From Candidatus Acutalibacter stercorigallinarum (lineage in GTDB: Bacteria; Bacillota; Clostridia; Oscillospirales; Acutalibacteraceae): DNA of 39,882 bases. Location of the stretch: positions 1 through 39,882 of the forward strand of contig DXIW01000015.1 in the NCBI GenBank assembly GCA_019112625.1. Reading direction: 5' to 3'. The position numbers and the translations under genes are program-made. This document shows positions 5,223-16,325 of this stretch, piece after piece (position 1 is the stretch's first letter; each line of letters begins with the position of its first letter). The notes under the pieces were generated by a model. That model was not told where the DNA came from. It searched no databases and saw only the letters and a program-made list of their open reading frames with translations.

Positions 5223-5309
5223 GCCGCTATGGCGGAACTGGCAGACGCAAGGGACTTAAAATCCCTCGGTAGCAATACCGTACCGGTTCGACCCCGGTTA
5301 GCGGCACCA
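5223..5309 (+). tRNA. tRNA-Leu (anticodon UAA), CCA encoded
   Basis: The acceptor arm GCCGCTA (5223-5229) pairs fully with TAGCGGC (5299-5305), followed by A and an encoded CCA. The anticodon stem AGGGA/TCCCT encloses CTTAAAA with anticodon TAA at 5257-5259. A long variable arm (CGGTAGCAATACCG) and the T loop GGTTCGACCCC confirm a class II tRNA-Leu. It reads UUA, a codon that should be rare in this GC-rich genome. Confidence 0.97.
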
Positions 5310-7581: not shown

Positions 7582-8718
7582 TCAGCCCTCGCTGTAGTTG
7601 CCCAGGAAGGAAAACCGGGGCAGCTCGTCGTGGAGGGCGCAGATCAGGTCCAATGTGGCCTTGTCGTGGATGTTCCCGGTGAAATCCAGGTAGAAGTCGT
7701 ACTCGAAGGCCTTGCCGGGGATGGGCCGGGACTCGATTTTGGTGAGGTTGAGGCCGCACAGGGCAAAGCGCTCCAGCACGTGGTACAACGAGCCTGTGGT
7801 GTGGGGGATGGAGAAGCACAGGCTGATCTTCCCCGCGTCCTCGGGGAAGATGGGCTCTTTGGAGATGACCACAAAGCGGGTGGTGTTGTTCTTCTCGTTC
7901 TGGACCCCCTCCTGGAGGACGGTGAGGCCGTACTGCTCCGCCGCCACCCGGGAGCAGAGCACCCCCATACCCGCGGGGCGCTCCTGCGCCACGTGGCGGG
8001 CCGCCGCCGCGGTGTTGGACCACTCCACGGGCTTCAGGCCGTGCTCCGCCAGGAAGTGGCTGCACTGGGACAAAGCCTGGGGGTGGGAGGCCACGGCGGT
8101 GAGGGGCTCATCCGCGCTTGGGGCGGCCAGGCAGTGGGCCACCTTCACATCCACCGCCCCCACGATGAAGAACCGGTACTGGAGGATCAGATCGTAGACG
8201 GCGGCCACGGAGCCGGAGGCGGAGTTCTCCACCGGCACCACCCCGTAGGCCCCGGGGACCTGGTCCACCTGCTGGAACACCTGGGGAAATTCCGGCACGA
8301 AGGTGATGGGGGCGTCCCCGAACAGGGTGCGGGCGGCCTGGTGGGACCAGGCGCCCTCCACCCCCTGGCAGATGACAGCCGCCGGGGGCTTGGGCTGGCG
8401 GCTGGCGGTGCGCTCCAGGTCCCGGAGGGCACCGCCGCCCTGGAGCAGCTGGTGCTGCCGGGCCCGGCTCACCGCCATGATGGAGCCGTAGAGGGAGGCA
8501 GCCTCCTCCCCGTACTCCCCGGCCTCTTTCCGCACCCGGTCTAAAATGGCCTGCTCCCGCTGGGGGGCGAACACCGGGGCTCCGGCCTGGCGCTTTAGCG
8601 CCGCCACCCGCTGGGAGCAGTCCATCCGGGCCAGGAACAGGGGCAGCAGCTGCCTGTCGATGGCGTCAATCTCCTGCCGCACCTGGCCCAGCTTTTCCTG
8701 ATATTCTCTCTCGTCCAC
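7582..8718 (-). CDS. pheA: Bifunctional chorismate mutase / prephenate dehydratase (P-protein)
   Basis: 378 residues from a GTG start with AAAGGGGAG 6 nt upstream. Residues 1-85 form an AroQ-type chorismate mutase (LGQVRQEIDAIDRQLLPLF, then RVAALKRQ). A prephenate dehydratase domain follows, with CQGVEGAWSHQAA, VVPVENSASGSVAAVYDL and NNTTRFVVI (the catalytic TRF). A C-terminal ACT domain is marked by TTGSLYHVLERF and ESRPIPG; ESRP is the Phe-binding motif, whereas the usual GALV is here GSLY. It turns chorismate into phenylpyruvate and is probably feedback-inhibited by Phe. It is the last biosynthetic gene of the attenuated operon, 17 nt after aroC. Confidence 0.95.
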   Translation of the reverse strand: MDEREYQEKLGQVRQEIDAIDRQLLPLFLARMDCSQRVAALKRQAGAPVFAPQREQAILDRVRKEAGEYGEEAASLYGSIMAVSRARQHQLLQGGGALRDLERTASRQPKPPAAVICQGVEGAWSHQAARTLFGDAPITFVPEFPQVFQQVDQVPGAYGVVPVENSASGSVAAVYDLILQYRFFIVGAVDVKVAHCLAAPSADEPLTAVASHPQALSQCSHFLAEHGLKPVEWSNTAAAARHVAQERPAGMGVLCSRVAAEQYGLTVLQEGVQNEKNNTTRFVVISKEPIFPEDAGKISLCFSIPHTTGSLYHVLERFALCGLNLTKIESRPIPGKAFEYDFYLDFTGNIHDKATLDLICALHDELPRFSFLGNYSEG

Positions 8719-8735: not shown

Positions 8736-9827
8736 TTACAGCAGGCCGCTCTGGGCCAGCAGCTCCAGCACGGCGATACAGGCGGCGGCCTCTACCACGG
8801 GCACGGCCCGGGGCACGATACAGGGGTCGTGCCGGCCCTTGACCACCAGCTTCCCCTCCCCGCCGGTGCGCAGGTCCACGGTGTCCTGCTCTTTGCCGAT
8901 GGAGGAGGTGGGCTTGAACGCCGCCCGGAACACCAGGGGCATGCCGTTGGTGATGCCCCCTAAAATCCCCCCGGCGTTGTTGGTACGGGTCTTGACATGG
9001 CCGTTTTCGTCCCGGTACATGGGGTCGTTGTTCTGGCTGCCCCGGAGGGCGGAGACGCCGAAGCCGGCGCCAAATTCCAGGCCCTTGACCGCCGGGATGC
9101 CGAACACCAGGGAGGCGATGAGGTTCTCCGCCCCGTCGAACATGGGGTTCCCCGCCCCCACGGGCAGGCCGGTGACGGCACACTCCACCATGCCGCCTAC
9201 GCTGTCCGCCTCCAGGCGGGCGGCCTCCACCTTTTCGTACATCCGCTCCTTGGCGGCGGGGTCGATGACCGGGAAGTACTCCCGGGAGAGGCGCTCCAGC
9301 AGCTCCCGGCCCGGGTCCACCGGGTCGAAGGGGGTGTCCGGCACCCCGGCGATGGCGGCCACGTGGGCCCCCACGGCAATGCCCCGGCGGCGGAGCATCT
9401 GCCGGGCGATGGCCCCGGCGAACACCAGGGGTGCTGTCAAACGCCCGGAAAAGTGCCCGCCCCCCCGGATGTCGTTGTGGCCGCCGTATTTCACCCAGGC
9501 GGTGTAGTCGGCGTGGCCGGGCCGGGGCAGCACCCGCAGGTTCTCGTAGTCCCCGGAGCGCTGGCTGGTGTTCTCGATGATGGCGCACAGGGGCGCGCCG
9601 GTGGTGACCCCTTCCAGCAGGCCGCAGAGGACCTGGGGGGCGTCGGGCTCCTTGCGGGTGGTGGCGGTCTTGTCCTGGCCCGGGGCCCGGCGGGCCATCT
9701 GGAGCAGGATCTCCTCGAAATCGATGGCCTCCCCGGCGGGCAGACCGTCGAGATTGACCCCGATGGCCTTGGTGTGGCTGCCGCCGAAAATCGACATTTT
9801 GACGCACTGGCCCCAACTAGACGACAT
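8736..9827 (-). CDS. aroC: Chorismate synthase
   Basis: 363 residues from MSSSWGQCVKMSIFGGSHTK. The family signature normally reads G-E-S-H-G; here it is GGSHT, keeping His18 but with Gly in place of Glu. Other marks are RPGHADYTAW, RGGGHFSGRLTAPLVFAGA (flavin and phosphate contacts) and NNAGGILGGITNG near residue 290. It converts EPSP to chorismate using reduced FMN. The start overlaps the aroA end by 11 nt and has GGAGGG 7 nt upstream; an earlier in-frame start (9851) is less likely. Confidence 0.95.
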   Translation of the reverse strand: MSSSWGQCVKMSIFGGSHTKAIGVNLDGLPAGEAIDFEEILLQMARRAPGQDKTATTRKEPDAPQVLCGLLEGVTTGAPLCAIIENTSQRSGDYENLRVLPRPGHADYTAWVKYGGHNDIRGGGHFSGRLTAPLVFAGAIARQMLRRRGIAVGAHVAAIAGVPDTPFDPVDPGRELLERLSREYFPVIDPAAKERMYEKVEAARLEADSVGGMVECAVTGLPVGAGNPMFDGAENLIASLVFGIPAVKGLEFGAGFGVSALRGSQNNDPMYRDENGHVKTRTNNAGGILGGITNGMPLVFRAAFKPTSSIGKEQDTVDLRTGGEGKLVVKGRHDPCIVPRAVPVVEAAACIAVLELLAQSGLL

Positions 9828-11121
9828 GGGCTTTCCCTCCCAAACTCTCAAAATCGGTAAAAAACTTCGGATAGGACTTGCGGATGCTCCAGGCGTCGGT
9901 GACGGTGACCGGCCTCCGGCTGCCCAGGGCAGCGGCGGCCAGGGCCATCACCACCCGGTGGTCATTGACCCCCTGGGCCAGGCCCCCGGAAAGGGTTTCT
10001 ACCCCCTGGATGACAAGGCCGTCCGCGGTGGCCTGCACCTTCCCGCCCAGGGCGGTGAGGGCCTGTTCCATGGCGGCCAGGCGGTCGCTCTCTTTCAGGC
10101 GCAGGCGCTGGGCGTTGTAAATGCGGGTCTCCCCCCGGCTGAGGGCGGCGCAGACGGAGAGGGCCGGCACCATGTCGGGGATCTGGGCGGCGTCGATGGC
10201 CTGGCCCCGCAGGCCGTGGAAGGGCTCCCCGGCATGGGGGTTGCGGGCCAGGAGGCGGTCCCCCTGCCAGCGGATGGACAGGCCGAAGTTCTGGAAGAGC
10301 TCCACACAGGCTTTGTCCCCCTGGCGGGACTGGGGCGAGAGGCCGGAGAGCTCCACCATCTCCCCGCCGGGGGCCAGGGCGGCCATGGCCAGGAAGAAGG
10401 CGGCCTGGGACCAGTCCCCCTCCACCGGGGCGTTCTGGGGGCGGTAGGACTGGTGCCCCGGCACGTGCCAGCCCCGCTCTGTGGGGAGGGCGGTGACGCC
10501 GAATTGGGCCATGGCCTGGAGGGTGAGGTTTACATAACCTTCCGACTCCAGGGGGGTGGTGAGGAGGATGTCGCTGTCCCCGGGGAGCAGGGGCAGGGCC
10601 AGCAGCAGCCCGGTGATAAACTGGGAGCTGATATTCCCCGGCACCTGGTACCCGCCGGGGGTGAGCTGCCCGGCGATGGTGAGGGGCAGGGATTCATCCC
10701 CCGGGTCCCGGTAGGACACGCCGTGACCGGGGAGCAGGTCCCGGTACACGTCCAAGGGGCGCTGGGGCAGGCGGCCGCTGCCGGTGAAGGTCCACGTCCC
10801 GCCCAGGGCGGCAGCGATGGGGATGAGAAACCGCAGGGTGGAGCCGGACTCCCCGCAGTCGATGGCGCCGCCGGGGGCGGAGCCGATGTTCTGCCCCTCC
10901 ACCAGCAGGGCGCCGGCGGCCTCGTCCAATACCGCACGGCCCCCCAGGGCCTGGATGGCCCGGGCGGTGGCGGCGATGTCCTGGCTGCCCGCCATGTGGG
11001 AGAGGAGGCACCGCCCCCGGGAGAGGGCGGCGCAGAGCATGGCCCGGTGGGCCACGCTCTTGCTGGGGGGCAGGAGCACTTGTCCCCCCTGGAATGTGTT
11101 TTGGTAGGTCACTTCCGCCAT
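9817..11121 (-). CDS. aroA: EPSP synthase (3-phosphoshikimate 1-carboxyvinyltransferase)
   Basis: 434 residues. Diagnostic segments are LLPPSKSVAHRAML (residues 16-29), DCGESGSTLRFLIPIAAA (about 86-103), RLRLKESDRLAAM (about 335) and NDHRVVMALA (about 380). It joins shikimate-3-phosphate and phosphoenolpyruvate. The ATG has GAGGTGA a few nt upstream and follows the aroB stop by 9 nt. The phosphoenolpyruvate-site glycine-rich loop is present. Length is normal for the family. Confidence 0.96.
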   Translation of the reverse strand: MAEVTYQNTFQGGQVLLPPSKSVAHRAMLCAALSRGRCLLSHMAGSQDIAATARAIQALGGRAVLDEAAGALLVEGQNIGSAPGGAIDCGESGSTLRFLIPIAAALGGTWTFTGSGRLPQRPLDVYRDLLPGHGVSYRDPGDESLPLTIAGQLTPGGYQVPGNISSQFITGLLLALPLLPGDSDILLTTPLESEGYVNLTLQAMAQFGVTALPTERGWHVPGHQSYRPQNAPVEGDWSQAAFFLAMAALAPGGEMVELSGLSPQSRQGDKACVELFQNFGLSIRWQGDRLLARNPHAGEPFHGLRGQAIDAAQIPDMVPALSVCAALSRGETRIYNAQRLRLKESDRLAAMEQALTALGGKVQATADGLVIQGVETLSGGLAQGVNDHRVVMALAAAALGSRRPVTVTDAWSIRKSYPKFFTDFESLGGKAHVV

Positions 11122-11130
11122 GGTATCACC

Positions 11131-12174
11131 TCACAGGGCAGAGAGCAGCTCTTCCCGCCGGATGGGGTAGATGACGCTTTCGCCCATGTCTTTGAGCAGG
11201 ATGAGGCGCAGGGTGTCGCCGTCGCTTTTCTTGTCCAGGGCGGTGGCGGCCACCACCTCCTCCTTGGAGAAGCGGTCCCGGGTGGGCAGGCCGTACTGCT
11301 CCAGCACCGCTTTCACCCGCTGGGCGGTGCCGGGTTTGGTGACCCCCAGGCGCTCCCCGGCGGCGCAGGCCATGACCATGCCGATGCCCACCGCCTCCCC
11401 GTGGGACAGGTCCCGGAAGTGGTGGAGCTTCTCCAGGGCGTGGCCGAAGGTGTGGCCGAAGTTCAGGATCATCCGGCGGCCGGTGTCCCTGGCGTCCTCC
11501 TCCACCAGCTCCTTTTTGCAGGCCACGCACCGGGCCAGCACCGCTTCCAGGTCGTCCAGGGCCCGGCCCTCCTCCAGGGCCTCGAAGAGCTCCCGGCTCT
11601 GGATGCAGCCGTACTTGACGACCTCCCCCAGGCCGTCCCGGAAGTAGTGGGGGGACAGGGTCTTGAGGGTGTCCGGGTCCTCGATGACCGCCAGGGGCTG
11701 GTGGAAGGCCCCCACCAGGTTTTTGCCGAAGGGCAGGTCCACGCCGGTCTTGCCCCCCACGCTGGCGTCCACCTGGGAGAGGAGGGTGGTGGGCACCTGG
11801 GCAAAGGGGATGCCCCGCAGGTAAGTGGCGGCGGCAAAGCCCCCCATGTCCCCGCAGACGCCGCCCCCCAGGGTGACGATGAAGTCGCTGCGGGTGAAGT
11901 CATTTTGGGCCAGGGCCTCGTACATCTGGCACACGGTGGCGATCTGTTTCGACTCCTCCCCCGCGGGGAACACAAAGCGGCTCACCCGGTAGCCGGCCCG
12001 CTCCAGGCTGGCCGCCGCCCGGTCCCCGTAGAGAGGGGCCACGTTGGTCTCGCTGATGAGCATGGCCCTGCAGCCGGGCTTTTTCACCTGGGCCAGGATG
12101 GTCCCCACCTGGTCCAGGGCCCCCCGCTGGATAGTGACGCTGTAGGGCTGGGCTGTGCGCACATCGATCTTCAT
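11131..12174 (-). CDS. aroB: 3-dehydroquinate synthase
   Basis: 347 residues from MKIDVRTAQPY. NAD-binding segment GGGVCGDMGGFAAATYLRG, then VPTTLLSQVDASVGGKTGVD, and zinc ligands in GLGEVVKYG, NFGHTFGHALE and SHGEAVGIGM. It cyclises DAHP to 3-dehydroquinate. The ribosome site GAAAGGG lies 7-8 nt before the ATG. The gene sits between tyrA and aroA in the operon. The next pathway enzyme, dehydroquinate dehydratase, is not encoded in this window. Confidence 0.96.
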   Translation of the reverse strand: MKIDVRTAQPYSVTIQRGALDQVGTILAQVKKPGCRAMLISETNVAPLYGDRAAASLERAGYRVSRFVFPAGEESKQIATVCQMYEALAQNDFTRSDFIVTLGGGVCGDMGGFAAATYLRGIPFAQVPTTLLSQVDASVGGKTGVDLPFGKNLVGAFHQPLAVIEDPDTLKTLSPHYFRDGLGEVVKYGCIQSRELFEALEEGRALDDLEAVLARCVACKKELVEEDARDTGRRMILNFGHTFGHALEKLHHFRDLSHGEAVGIGMVMACAAGERLGVTKPGTAQRVKAVLEQYGLPTRDRFSKEEVVAATALDKKSDGDTLRLILLKDMGESVIYPIRREELLSAL

Positions 12175-12200
12175 AGCTGTTCCCTTTCCTTTCCGGGGGG

Positions 12201-13058
12201 TTACCCCTCGCTCCGTTTGATTTCGGCCGCCCTGCGCAGCAGGTCCTGGAGGGCCGCCTCGTCCCCCTGGGCCACGGCGTCTCGCAGGGTTTGCAGGTTG
12301 CGCTGGAGCTCGTCCAGCTCCTCCAACAGGTCCTCCCGGTTGTCCAGGAAGAGGCGGCTCCACAGCACGTGGTTGATGTTGGCCACCCGGGACACGTCCC
12401 GGTAGCTGCCGGCGGAAAAGCCCTTGTGCAGCCTGCACCGGGGGCTCATTACATAGGCGCAGGCCAGGGCGTGGGGCACTTGTGAGGTATAGGCGATGAC
12501 CTGGTCGTGCTCTTCCGGGGTGGTGTACACCACCCGGCCGAAGCCCATGGCCTTGGCCAGAGCGGCCACGGTCTCCACCGCCCAGGCAGGGGCTTCCCCG
12601 GGGGCGATGAGGTAGGAGGCCCCCACGAAGATGCTGGGGTCGCTGGCGGAAAAGCCAGAGAGCTCCTTGCCCGCCATGGGGTGGCCGGGGACAAAGGCGT
12701 ACCGACCCTGCCCCCGGAGCTCCCCCACCCCCTGGCAGATGAGCTTCTTCACGCCGCAGGCGTCGGTGAGGATGCAGCCCTCTTTCAGCTTCGGGCCCCA
12801 CTGCCTCACAAAGTCCAGGGCGGCCTCGGGGTAGACGCACAGGTAAATGAGGTCGGCGTCCTTCAGGTCCTCGGGGCCGGCCTTGCCGCGGATGGCCCCG
12901 CAGGAGCAGGCGTCCAGCAGGGAGTCGTCGTCGATGTCCATGCCCAGGACCTGGTGGGGGGTGTTCTGGGTGAGGGCCTTGGCCAGGGAGCCGCCGATGA
13001 GCCCCAGCCCCACGATGACGATCTTTTTGGGCTCCCCGGCCCTCCAGGGGGCGCTCAC
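12201..13058 (-). CDS. tyrA: Prephenate dehydrogenase
   Basis: 285 residues from GTG, which overlaps the aroF stop (GTGA). The Rossmann motif is KIVIVGLGLIGGSLAKAL (residues 12-29); LTDACGVKKLI and FVPGHPMAGKELSG hold the conserved His of the active site, and AYTSQVPHALA is the substrate-side helix. No C-terminal ACT domain is present at this length, so Tyr feedback would not be through ACT. It oxidises prephenate to 4-hydroxyphenylpyruvate with NAD(P). Confidence 0.94.
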   Translation of the reverse strand: MSAPWRAGEPKKIVIVGLGLIGGSLAKALTQNTPHQVLGMDIDDDSLLDACSCGAIRGKAGPEDLKDADLIYLCVYPEAALDFVRQWGPKLKEGCILTDACGVKKLICQGVGELRGQGRYAFVPGHPMAGKELSGFSASDPSIFVGASYLIAPGEAPAWAVETVAALAKAMGFGRVVYTTPEEHDQVIAYTSQVPHALACAYVMSPRCRLHKGFSAGSYRDVSRVANINHVLWSRLFLDNREDLLEELDELQRNLQTLRDAVAQGDEAALQDLLRRAAEIKRSEG

Positions 13059-14068
13059 AGGGTGCTCACCAGGTCGGAGACGGCCCCCACCTTTTTGGCC
13101 AGCCTGTCAAACTGGGCGGGGGTGATGGACTGGGCCCCGTCGCACAGGGCGTGGCTGGGGTCGTTGTGCACCTCGATGATGAGGCCGTCGGCCCCCACGG
13201 CGGCGGCGGCCATGGCCAGGGGCTCTACCAGCCAGCTGAGGCCCGAGGCGTGGCTGGGGTCCACGATCACCGGCAGGTGGGACAGCCGCTTGATGACGGG
13301 CACGGCGGAGATGTCCAGGGTGTTGCGGGTGATGGTCTCGTAGGTGCGGATGCCCCGCTCGCAGAGGATGACCTGCTCGTTGCCCTCGGCCATGATGTAC
13401 TCAGCGCTCATCAGGAGCTCCTCGATGGTGTTGGCCAGGCCCCGCTTTAAGAGGATGGGCTTGTGGAGGCGGCCCAGCTGCATTAACAGCTCGAAGTTCT
13501 GCATGTTCCGGGCGCCCACCTGGATGATGTCCACGTCGTCGAACAGGGGCAGGTGCTCGATGCTCATGATCTCGGTGACGATGGGCAGGCCGGTCTTTTG
13601 CTTGGCCTCGCTGAGGAGCTCCAGGCCCTCGGCCTTCATGCCCTGGAAGGCGTAGGGGGAGGTGCGGGGCTTGAAGGCCCCGCCCCGGAGGAATTGGGCC
13701 CCGGACTCCTTGACCTTTTCGGCCACATAGCAGATCTGCTCCTCGCTCTCCACCGAGCAGGGGCCGGCGATGAGGGCCAGGCCTCCCCCGCCGATCTTCT
13801 GGCCGCCGGGCAGGGTGATGACCGTGTCGTCGGGGTGGAATTTGCGGTTTGCCTTTTTATAGGGCTCCTGCACCCGCTTGACGCTCTCCACAAAGTCCTG
13901 GGCCTGGATGTACTCCGCGTCGATGGCGGTGGTGTCGCCGATGAGGCCCAGCACGGTGCTCTGGGTGCCCACCCAGGTGTTCACCTGGACATCGTAGTTA
14001 TGGGTGAGCTTTTGGACGAAGGAGTCGATGACCTCCTGTTTTTGGTTGGGTTTCAGTACGATGATCAT
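13055..14068 (-). CDS. aroF: DAHP synthase, type I-beta with N-terminal regulatory domain
   Basis: 337 residues. Residues 1-70 form the ferredoxin-like regulatory (DAHP_synth_FL) domain seen in Thermotoga-type enzymes. The catalytic barrel then shows LIAGPCSVESEEQI, FLRGGAFKPRTSPYAFQG, LLKRGLANTIEELL, CERGIRTYE and VIVDPSHASG. It condenses phosphoenolpyruvate and erythrose-4-phosphate, the committing step, and the regulatory domain in this class mediates Tyr/Phe inhibition. The ATG has GAAAGGAAG about 8 nt upstream. It is the first structural gene behind the leader attenuator at 14091-14287, so flux is probably controlled twice. Confidence 0.96.
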   Translation of the reverse strand: MIIVLKPNQKQEVIDSFVQKLTHNYDVQVNTWVGTQSTVLGLIGDTTAIDAEYIQAQDFVESVKRVQEPYKKANRKFHPDDTVITLPGGQKIGGGGLALIAGPCSVESEEQICYVAEKVKESGAQFLRGGAFKPRTSPYAFQGMKAEGLELLSEAKQKTGLPIVTEIMSIEHLPLFDDVDIIQVGARNMQNFELLMQLGRLHKPILLKRGLANTIEELLMSAEYIMAEGNEQVILCERGIRTYETITRNTLDISAVPVIKRLSHLPVIVDPSHASGLSWLVEPLAMAAAAVGADGLIIEVHNDPSHALCDGAQSITPAQFDRLAKKVGAVSDLVSTL

Positions 14069-14090
14069 AGCCGCAGCTTCCTTTCCGATA

Positions 14091-14125
14091 ACAATAAAAA
14101 TAGCGGGGCCAGGTTTGGCTCCGCT
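14091..14125 (-). terminator. Leader (attenuator) terminator upstream of aroF
   Basis: On the minus strand AGCGGAGCCA (14125-14116) pairs with TGGCCCCGCT (14111-14102), 10 positions with one A-C mismatch, loop AACC, followed directly by ATTTTTATTGTTAT. It lies after the leader ORF and ends just before the aroF ribosome site, so it must be bypassed for aroF expression. Confidence 0.8.
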
Positions 14126-14152
14126 GAATGACTGTAACTCTCCATTCCGGCC

Positions 14153-14287
14153 CTAGACAGCCTGGGCATAAACGCCCAAAGCGCCAGGGACCGCGCAGCC
14201 GCGCCTATGTTTCCACGGGAAATAAGCCCGCGCGGTAAATCGCAGGCTGAAGGAACGGCTAAATCGCTTGTCGATGGGGTGCTTCAT
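14153..14287 (-). CDS. Putative aromatic amino acid leader peptide (attenuator ORF)
   Basis: A 44-codon ORF starts at ATG 14287 with AAAGGAG 8 nt upstream and stops at TAG 14155-14153. The product begins MKHPIDKRFSRSF and has Phe at 9, 13, 17 and 23, Tyr at 22 and 40, and Trp at 25, with the cluster AYFPW at 21-25. It is basic and not like any enzyme. A consensus promoter lies 41 nt upstream and an intrinsic terminator 28 nt downstream. Stem CCGCGC (14235-14230) with GCGCGG (14204-14199) encloses the Tyr-Phe-Pro-Trp codons. I infer that ribosome stalling at these codons selects between terminator and antiterminator. Confidence 0.75.
   Translation of the reverse strand: MKHPIDKRFSRSFSLRFTARAYFPWKHRRGCAVPGALGVYAQAV
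14193..14235 (-). promoter_or_regulatory. Candidate attenuator segments 1 and 2 (alternative RNA pairing)
   Basis: Segment 1 CCGCGC (14235-14230) can pair with GCGCGG (14204-14199). The overlapping segment 2, GGCTGCGC (14200-14193), can instead pair with GCGGAGCC in the terminator 5' arm, 7 of 8 bases. The two pairings share bases 14199-14200, so they exclude each other, as in classical attenuators. Found by eye, not by folding software. Confidence 0.55.
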
Positions 14288-14327
14288 AAGGCGTTCTCCT
14301 TTGCTGGGAACGGAATGTCCGATTTTT

Positions 14328-14356
14328 AGTTTACGACAGCCCCGGCGGTTTGTCAA
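14328..14356 (-). promoter_or_regulatory. Sigma-A promoter of the aroF operon
   Basis: Minus strand -35 TTGACA (14356-14351), 17-nt spacer, -10 TAAACT (14333-14328). The -35 overlaps the aroK stop codon (TGA within TTGACA). Transcription would begin near 14321, giving a leader RNA of about 250 nt before aroF. Confidence 0.85.
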
Positions 14357-14895
14357 GACATTTTTCCGCCCGGGGCCGCCCCCTGCCCCGGCTGCCACAG
14401 GGCGGCGATGCGCTTTGCCACCACGATGGCCGGGGCCCCGGCGTCGATGACCCGGTCCGCCGCGGCCTGGTACAGGGGGCAGCGCTGGCGGTACAGCCGG
14501 GCGATGACCTGCCGCCGGTCCGGCACCTGCAGGAGGGGGCGGCGCTTGTCGTTTTTCAGGCGCTCCTGCAGAGCGGCCAGGGGCACGTCCAGGTACAGGA
14601 TGACGCTGCCCCCCTGGTGGAAGAGCTCCACGTTCTTGGGGTACAGCACCGTGCCACCGCCGCTGGCGATGACCCGGCCGTCCCCGGGGGCCACCTCCGC
14701 GGCGGCCTGGGCCTCCCGCCGGCGGAAGCCCGCCTCCCCCTCCTTCTCGAAGATCTGGGAGACGGTCATGCCCGCTTTTTCCTCGATGTACTGGTCCAGG
14801 TCGATGAACTCCCGGTCCAGGAGTCTGGCCAGCCTGCGGCCGATGCTGGTCTTGCCGCTGCCCATAAAGCCGCACAGCACGATATTCCCCTGCAA
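14353..14895 (-). CDS. aroK: Shikimate kinase
   Basis: 180 residues. Walker A GFMGSGKTSIGRRLA (about residues 9-23), EFIDLDQYIEEKAG (shikimate-binding aspartate), the EGEAGFRRREA segment, and IASGGGTVL. The start is taken as TTG 14895 (product MQGNIVLCGFMGSGK) because GAGGGGGGAG lies just upstream and no ATG precedes the P-loop in frame. It phosphorylates shikimate with ATP. It follows aroE by 14 nt and ends inside the -35 box of the aroF promoter. Confidence 0.93.
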   Translation of the reverse strand: MQGNIVLCGFMGSGKTSIGRRLARLLDREFIDLDQYIEEKAGMTVSQIFEKEGEAGFRRREAQAAAEVAPGDGRVIASGGGTVLYPKNVELFHQGGSVILYLDVPLAALQERLKNDKRRPLLQVPDRRQVIARLYRQRCPLYQAAADRVIDAGAPAIVVAKRIAALWQPGQGAAPGGKMS

Positions 14896-15848: not shown

Positions 15849-15877
15849 TTGACAAAGCCGGGGACAGTAAATACAAT
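15849..15877 (+). promoter_or_regulatory. Sigma-A promoter of acpP
   Basis: -35 TTGACA (15849-15854), 17-nt spacer, -10 TACAAT (15872-15877). Confidence 0.85.
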
Positions 15878-16033: not shown

Positions 16034-16261
16034 ATGGTATTGGAAAAGGTTAAGGCTATCTTGGCAAGTCAGTTCGATGAGGACGAGGACAACATCACCC
16101 CAGAGACCCGGCTGCAGGAAGATCTGAACGCCGACTCTCTCGACGTGGTGGACCTCATCATGAACATCCAGGACGAGTTCGAGGTGGAGATCCCCGACGA
16201 GGATGTAGAGAATATCAAGACGGTCGGCGCGCTGGTGGAATACATCGAGAACCATTCCTAA
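16034..16261 (+). CDS. acpP: Acyl carrier protein
   Basis: 75 residues, strongly acidic. The phosphopantetheine site is in LNADSLDVVDLIM with Ser35. Length and the EIPDEDVENIKTVG segment match fatty-acid synthase ACPs. It carries acyl chains on a 4'-phosphopantetheine arm in the cytoplasm. AGGAGG lies 9 nt upstream. It stands alone rather than in a fab cluster and ends in its own terminator. Confidence 0.97.
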   Translation: MVLEKVKAILASQFDEDEDNITPETRLQEDLNADSLDVVDLIMNIQDEFEVEIPDEDVENIKTVGALVEYIENHS

Positions 16262-16293: not shown

Positions 16294-16325
16294 ACACCCG
16301 GACGCTTTGTCCGGGTGTTTTTCTT
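16294..16325 (+). terminator. Terminator of acpP
   Basis: ACACCCGGAC, 5-nt loop, GTCCGGGTGT, then TTTTCTT. Confidence 0.92.

Follow-up and report, generated by a model that had tools for sequence, protein, structure and literature searches.

A candidate ribosome-mediated attenuator with a Phe/Tyr/Trp leader peptide ahead of the aro operon in Clostridia

Described leaders and the layout of the aroF locus

In the classical scheme of ribosome-mediated attenuation, a leader ORF with sensor codons is accompanied by a leader hairpin and by an antiterminator and a terminator that share one arm. T-box leaders also read tRNA charging through the choice between terminator and antiterminator, and T-boxes or TRAP are the usual explanation for how aromatic genes are controlled in the anaerobes considered here. 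The leader that we describe ahead of aroF in Candidatus Acutalibacter stercorigallinarum lies in a stretch of 39,882 nucleotides that was analysed as a whole and is called the window below. It resembles T-box leaders (RF00230) in the readout of tRNA charging, but it would sense this charging by translation. With the trp, phe, his and ilv leaders of Proteobacteria and Actinobacteria it shares the sensor ORF, the hairpin and the shared arm, whereas it belongs to another class, carries a mixed Phe/Tyr/Trp sensor ahead of a common pathway, and in its relatives has an antiterminator region that tends to favour the Shine-Dalgarno (SD) and start region as its partner when untranslated.

Ribosome-mediated attenuators are present in Actinobacteria according to PMC1262725. 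Closest by position is uORFC-13-1, a motif upstream of aroF in Acholeplasma (24 sequences, from Acholeplasma and environmental samples), which according to PMC8632094 comprises a promoter, a terminator and a uORF containing one or more Phe codons, and for which attenuation was proposed; by its description it shares the uORF, the promoter, the terminator and the aroF position with the leader of the window. In addition, His leader peptides of hisS and hisZ were reported in bacilli in PMC2965389, where regular leader peptides of Firmicutes are called noticeable. These are also Firmicutes attenuators, replacing T-boxes, but they concern another amino acid, other genes and another class. The statement of the preliminary description that Firmicutes rely mainly on T-boxes or TRAP for aromatic genes must thus be qualified, as leader peptides of Firmicutes had already been reported in these two sources, for aroF as a candidate (PMC2965389, PMC8632094). 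In the open literature searched we did not find an aroF leader peptide in Clostridia, nor a description of a class-wide leader family of this known attenuator kind; the word aroF is absent from PMC2494555 by term search, and a survey by Lopatovskaya and colleagues, cited in PMC4833913, may hold related predictions.

The aroK-aroF spacer of the window, read on the minus strand, is made up of a promoter, an SD, the leader ORF, an antiterminator strand and an intrinsic terminator (Table 1). The promoter had been proposed as TTGACA-N17-TAAACT, and the promoter scan recovered it as sigma-70-like at 14356-14328, with its boxes at 14356-14351 and 14333-14328 and 10 of 12 consensus matches. The ORF at 14287-14153 also agrees with what had been claimed, that is, 44 codons behind AAAGGAG with four Phe, two Tyr and one Trp codons; the AYFPW cluster is found at 14227-14213, with one further Tyr codon at 14170-14168. 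Two overlapping alternative stems had been put forward. For the first, CCGCGC at 14235-14230 is indeed complementary to GCGCGG at 14204-14199. For the second, the strand at 14200-14193 does pair, but its partner is 14124-14117 instead of 14123-14116, through 7 pairs and one G-G mismatch. The proposed intrinsic terminator was found as the stem 14125-14116/14111-14102, which has one A-C mismatch and a U-tract reaching to 14094, just ahead of the aroF SD (14084-14077), as anticipated. Note that a simple terminator scan of the window failed to list this terminator (14125-14102), whose stem carries the mismatch. The fold of 14141-14102, the RNA left downstream by a ribosome that has reached the stop codon, is the terminator, at -14.4 kcal/mol (z -3.1). 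The gene order aroF-tyrA-aroB-aroA-aroC-pheA agrees with the NCBIfam matches, among which aroF, aroB, aroA and aroC exceed the curated cut-offs and tyrA, pheA, aroK and aroE fall below them.

Table 1. Features of the aroF leader and of the operon behind it, in positions of the window
Feature	Positions	Strand	Sequence	Basis or remark
-35 box	14351-14356	-	TTGACA	overlaps aroK stop codon
-10 box	14328-14333	-	TAAACT	17-base spacer to -35
Leader SD	14296-14302	-	AAAGGAG	read from sequence
Leader ORF, 44 codons + TAG	14153-14287	-	MKHPIDKRFSRSFSLRFTARAYFPWKHRRGCAVPGALGVYAQAV	ORF and relatives
First CGATTTA motif (CGA-UUU dicodon)	14260-14266	-	CGATTTA	conserved in family
Sensor codons F, F, F, Y, F, W	14213-14263	-		conserved F/Y/W columns in relatives
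P1 hairpin in ORF	14226-14247	-	GCCTGCG-ATTTACCG-CGCGGGC then TTATTT	-11.8 kcal/mol
Antiterminator strand	14193-14200	-	GGCTGCGC	pairs with 14124-14117
Terminator left arm, common to antiterminator	14116-14125	-	AGCGGAGCCA	stem search and fold
Terminator right arm	14102-14111	-	TGGCCCCGCT	stem search and fold
Terminator U-tract	14094-14101	-	ATTTTTAT	stem search
aroF ribosome site	14077-14084	-	AAAGGAAG	read from sequence
aroF, DAHP synthase, first operon gene	13055-14068	-		PRK08673.1 487.7 bits, TIGR01361
tyrA, prephenate dehydrogenase family	12201-13058	-		below curated cut-offs
aroB	11131-12177	-		TIGR01357; start inferred from match, residue 233 of longer ORF
aroA	9817-11121	-		TIGR01356
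aroC	8736-9851	-		NF003793; start codon uncertain
pheA, chorismate mutase-prephenate dehydratase	7582-8712	-		start inferred from match; below curated cut-offs

An aromatic-codon ORF, a terminator, a segment complementary to the left arm of this terminator, and conservation are established by sequence and comparison. We read the locus as a ribosome-mediated transcription attenuator that would make transcription of the aro operon depend on how far tRNA-Phe, tRNA-Tyr and tRNA-Trp are charged, with a probability of roughly 0.9 on sequence comparison and folding models. A chance ORF followed by the terminator of an aroE-aroK unit would fit a region lying directly behind aroK; however, the promoter precedes both the ORF and the terminator, and the arrangement is conserved over many families, so that the likelihood of this explanation is practically negligible.

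Conservation of the leader and of its codons

The family set comprised 115 aroF upstream regions, i.e., 29 of the genus and 86 belonging to the best-scoring AroF matches of 198 (300 family genomes), of which 113 were usable, L013 and L112 being too short. Using an ATG ORF with at least five aromatic codons as the criterion, a leader was found before aroF in 95 of the 113 genus and family regions and not in the other 18, with the leaders of L081, L113 and L024 set by hand. A terminator score of at least 15 was reached behind the ORF in 91 of these 95 leaders, compared to 20 of 940 shuffled spacers, and a strong terminator therefore recurs in most relatives that have the leader. The class set consisted of 84 regions chosen by AroF score (83 without L264, which was too short), and the criterion was stricter: an ATG ORF with an SD and at least six F/Y/W in 14 codons. 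Such aromatic-rich leaders were present in 59/83 regions against 18/2490 shuffles; 24/83 lack an ATG leader at this threshold, two of which (L340, L269) have a GTG or TTG leader. Named carriers of a leader outside the family are Clostridium tyrobutyricum, C. magnum, C. weizhouense, Lawsonibacter sp., Marasmitruncus and Angelakisella. In the phylum set (28 loci), an aromatic leader precedes aroF in 11 of the 17 loci with an AroF at least 56% identical and in none of the 11 below this value. Thus the leader, which had been described for a Firmicute, is real in the window but not peculiar to its genus: the ORF, its aromatic codons, the terminator and the predicted antiterminator strand recur in the genus, in the family and in much of the class.

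The peptide profile A1 matched in 30 of 60 genomes and found the leader in front of aroF, but it missed same-genus leaders in G006, G025 and G027. Its matches away from aroF (L172, L174, L176) were considered as second leaders and judged to be chance; a fourth such match was the second one in G021, without a locus. Two minor observations concern more distant loci. L170 (G328), from another family of the order, shows a divergent leader MLNKAYFTCFFTFGYYFSWGYLCCKKA and a terminator upstream of aroF, and it may link the leader of the window with the Clostridium-type leaders. In addition, in a metagenome-assembled genome titled Treponemataceae (L221), where transfer or a binning error may be involved, an ORF rich in aromatic codons precedes an aroF that shares 65% identity with the query.

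Aromatic codons make up 796 of the 3522 codons of the family leaders, and Phe is present in all 95, Tyr in 92 and Trp in 55. The Phe codon is UUU in 391/470 cases, compared to 192/514 in the aroF genes. The peptides of the family align on their F/Y/W columns with a highly variable C-terminal part, and the peptides in other families differ yet remain equally aromatic. A gene for a conserved small protein, followed by an ordinary terminator, would explain the in-frame ORF, which has an SD-like site in 93 of 95 family leaders. Nevertheless, such a terminator would sever the operon from its nearest promoter, the C-terminal part varies strongly, and the antiterminator strand begins inside the ORF, overlapping its C-terminal part, in 84/94 family loci; we regard this explanation as highly implausible. 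This overlap also bears on nascent-peptide arrest of the TnaC or Erm leader type, in which a conserved peptide would stall the ribosome on a free ligand. Residues besides F/Y/W are indeed kept in the family (R-F, A-C/W), as an arrest peptide would require, but this conservation tracks nucleotides, since the Arg of the first R-F is CGA in 78 of 78 cases, and the P-R and A-W/R codons sit in the P1 stem. The C-terminal overlap with the antiterminator strand and the different but equally aromatic peptides of other families also argue against arrest, and its sign would be wrong for a biosynthetic operon, which makes it quite improbable compared to attenuation.

The first Arg-Phe columns of the family leaders are thus strikingly uniform in their codons, with CGA for every Arg and UUU in 88/89 Phe, although CGA accounts for only 12 of 743 Arg codons in the aroF genes and for 1 of 99 in five aro genes of the window. 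The resulting CGATTTA is present in 81/95 family leaders, and leaders outside the family encode 7 of their 13 R-F pairs as CGATTT. Binding of the leader by an RNA-binding protein, or a small-molecule riboswitch, for instance via CGAUUUA and with an incidental ORF, would account for this motif and for its want of a conserved pairing partner: none stood out when the family leaders were folded. On the other hand, the distance from ATG to CGATTTA is divisible by 3 in 77 of 79 leaders, so that the motif is in frame with the SD and ATG, and it is largely confined to one family, whereas aromatic leaders span the class. Moreover, no Rfam 15 family reaches the threshold at the leader of the window, where sub-threshold matches are to unrelated families only; eight named loci gave no match at threshold upstream of aroF, and 20 relatives gave a single sub-threshold match to an unrelated family. 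Protein or ligand binding is therefore very improbable as the basis of regulation. A role of CGATTTA as a pairing element was also dropped because its pairing with the antiterminator is low (0.09 on average for the first R-F region) and no partner is conserved. Decoding of CGA by inosine is slow. In most bacteria, CGA is decoded by a wobble-inosine tRNA, according to PMC3711424. The conservation of CGA-UUU may have its explanation at the codon level.

The predicted switch

In order to follow the switch, a ribosome was placed on each codon of 94 family loci, and the pairing of the terminator left arm with upstream RNA was computed before the right arm exists. The L024 leader was left out of these folding tests because its frame runs on. 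The anchor codon was placed three codons downstream of the last conserved Phe/Tyr column, and the main figures treat the RNA behind the ribosome as unable to pair. In the family, left-arm occupancy stayed near 0.75 as long as the stall was four or more codons ahead of the anchor, was 0.68 at the anchor, decreased to 0.33 five codons past it, and partially recovered to 0.49 ten codons past it, while the mean probability of the full terminator ran in the opposite direction, from about 0.8 to 0.95. For a stalled ribosome, the left arm was paired at 0.716, compared to 0.379 for a ribosome at the stop codon (higher in 89/94) and to 0.592 for shuffled spacers (higher in 79/94). In one of the 94 loci the mask extended into the left arm and the stop state was therefore scored as 0; leaving this locus out gives 0.719 and 0.383 (88/93). 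This folding with ribosome positions separated the leaders from shuffles where a plain duplex search did not: the strongest duplex of the left arm with any upstream segment had a mean z of -0.55, with 13/95 in the top 5%.

The same contrast was obtained class-wide (n=106, selected), with 0.679 for stalled ribosomes, 0.323 at the stop codon (stalled higher in 97/106) and 0.521 in shuffles (91/106). This set was built from 107 leaders, L299 being left out, namely 61 of the class set and 46 passing of 48 named loci, which had been picked from 76 of 80 scanned; the parts overlap (L217 and L273 are the same leader). It says nothing on leader frequency because loci were picked for showing a leader, and the downstream terminator seen in 100/106 of these selected leaders is likewise a count without a null set.

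The position of the antiterminator relative to the sensor is also constrained. Measured from the anchor codon, its centre has a median distance of 20 nt downstream (MAD 4 nt) and falls between 12 and 30 nt in 62/92, whereas its distance to the stop codon scatters far more (MAD 15 nt). The first base to pair is found 10-18 nt past the anchor in 61/94 loci and 13-15 nt past it in 31/94, which is presumably about where the ribosome footprint would end. The sequence of the left arm varies between loci, and both of its alternative partners vary along with it; as these pairs were themselves obtained by folding and stem searching, the comparison with shuffles is the test that counts. In the window, the fold of 14204-14112, roughly the RNA left free by a stall at the Trp codon before the right arm is made, contains the 14200-14193/14124-14117 pairing. 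At equilibrium, however, the full-length terminator of the window wins at every stall position, and the switch must therefore be co-transcriptional. Classical attenuators likewise need co-transcriptional folding. In the window, about 13 codons separate the antiterminator strand from the stop codon, and a ribosome that has arrived there would therefore leave the strand uncovered.

How large a switch is predicted hinges on the treatment of the ribosome in the model. When only the footprint is masked, the contrast is small, with 0.634 for stalled ribosomes and 0.555 at the stop codon (higher in 65/94), and it is not significant against a ribosome four codons past the anchor (0.596; stalled higher in 55/94, p=0.055). 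For the window alone, this mask gives 0.56 when stalled and 0.31 at the stop codon. On a sensor stall, the antiterminator is predicted to be mutually exclusive with the terminator, weakly so with the footprint-only mask. When the leader RNA is untranslated, predicted pairing of the antiterminator region with the SD and start reaches 0.543, compared to 0.324 in shuffles (higher in 80/94 loci); nonetheless, the left arm without a ribosome is paired upstream at 0.535 over the 94 loci under the footprint-only mask, and at 0.61 in the window. Pairing with the SD and start could possibly act as a fallback favouring termination in the relatives, and it is not clear in the window.

The P1 hairpin within the ORF has 8.5 expected pairs compared to 2.6 in shuffles and is higher in all 94 loci; it is terminator-like with a U-tail in 40/94 loci against 3/940 shuffles. 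It is probably a hairpin that pauses the polymerase so that the ribosome catches up.

The reading as a leader-peptide attenuator, already proposed in the preliminary description, is supported by the conserved ORF, the aromatic codons, the terminator and the predicted antiterminator. With an ample supply of charged aromatic tRNAs, the ribosome would run through the leader and cover the antiterminator strand; with this strand hidden, the terminator would form and transcription would end before aroF. When one aromatic tRNA is short, the ribosome would stall in the sensor cluster, the antiterminator strand would pair with the nascent left arm, and the polymerase would enter aroF-tyrA-aroB-aroA-aroC-pheA. 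In a leader that is not translated, the antiterminator region would tend to pair with the leader SD and start, as predicted in relatives but not clearly so in the window.

Coexistence with T-boxes and wider meaning

The genome gave nine T-box matches at E <=0.001, five of which were examined (L341-L345). Those over the cut-off precede tyrS (C3) and an aminotransferase-trpS pair (C60), and those below it precede leuA (C31), a TrpB-like gene (C7) and pheS (C19). At the aroF leader (14050-14400), no T-box (RF00230) match was obtained with E up to 10. The presence of T-box matches before single-amino-acid genes and their absence from the aroF leader lead us to propose a division of labour, in which T-boxes would serve the genes of a single amino acid and a translated multi-tRNA sensor would serve the shared pathway. 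Indeed, a mixed codon sensor would suit a pathway that feeds three amino acids. This raises the question of why a translated sensor is used for the common pathway beside aromatic T-boxes, for which the integration of several tRNAs is our proposed answer.

For a major group of anaerobes, our analysis puts forward a concrete candidate for the control of the aromatic operon, and it adds a large leader-peptide family, with Rfam 15 giving no match to it in the sequences searched. The main new points are the breadth of this family, its coexistence with T-boxes and the CGA-UUU pair. A bolder and tentative picture, which we would sooner bet against than for as a whole, is that of an ancient Clostridia-wide family of aro attenuators acting as an OR-gate for three uncharged tRNAs, with T-boxes kept for the single-amino-acid genes. 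It would use three RNA states, in which the antiterminator strand is bound to the SD region of the leader, bound to the terminator arm or covered by the ribosome, together with an early pause or terminator hairpin in the ORF; the CGA-UUU pair might slow the decoding of the sensor Phe through an I-A wobble in the P site and thus sharpen sensitivity.

Elsewhere in the window, a small ORF at 16034-16261 (+) appears acyl carrier protein-like by eye and sits between divergent promoters (15849-15877 on the plus strand and 15960-15931 on the minus strand) and proS, with a terminator palindrome nearby at 16294-16318. Finally, a tRNA-Leu (TAA) is located at 5223-5309 (+).
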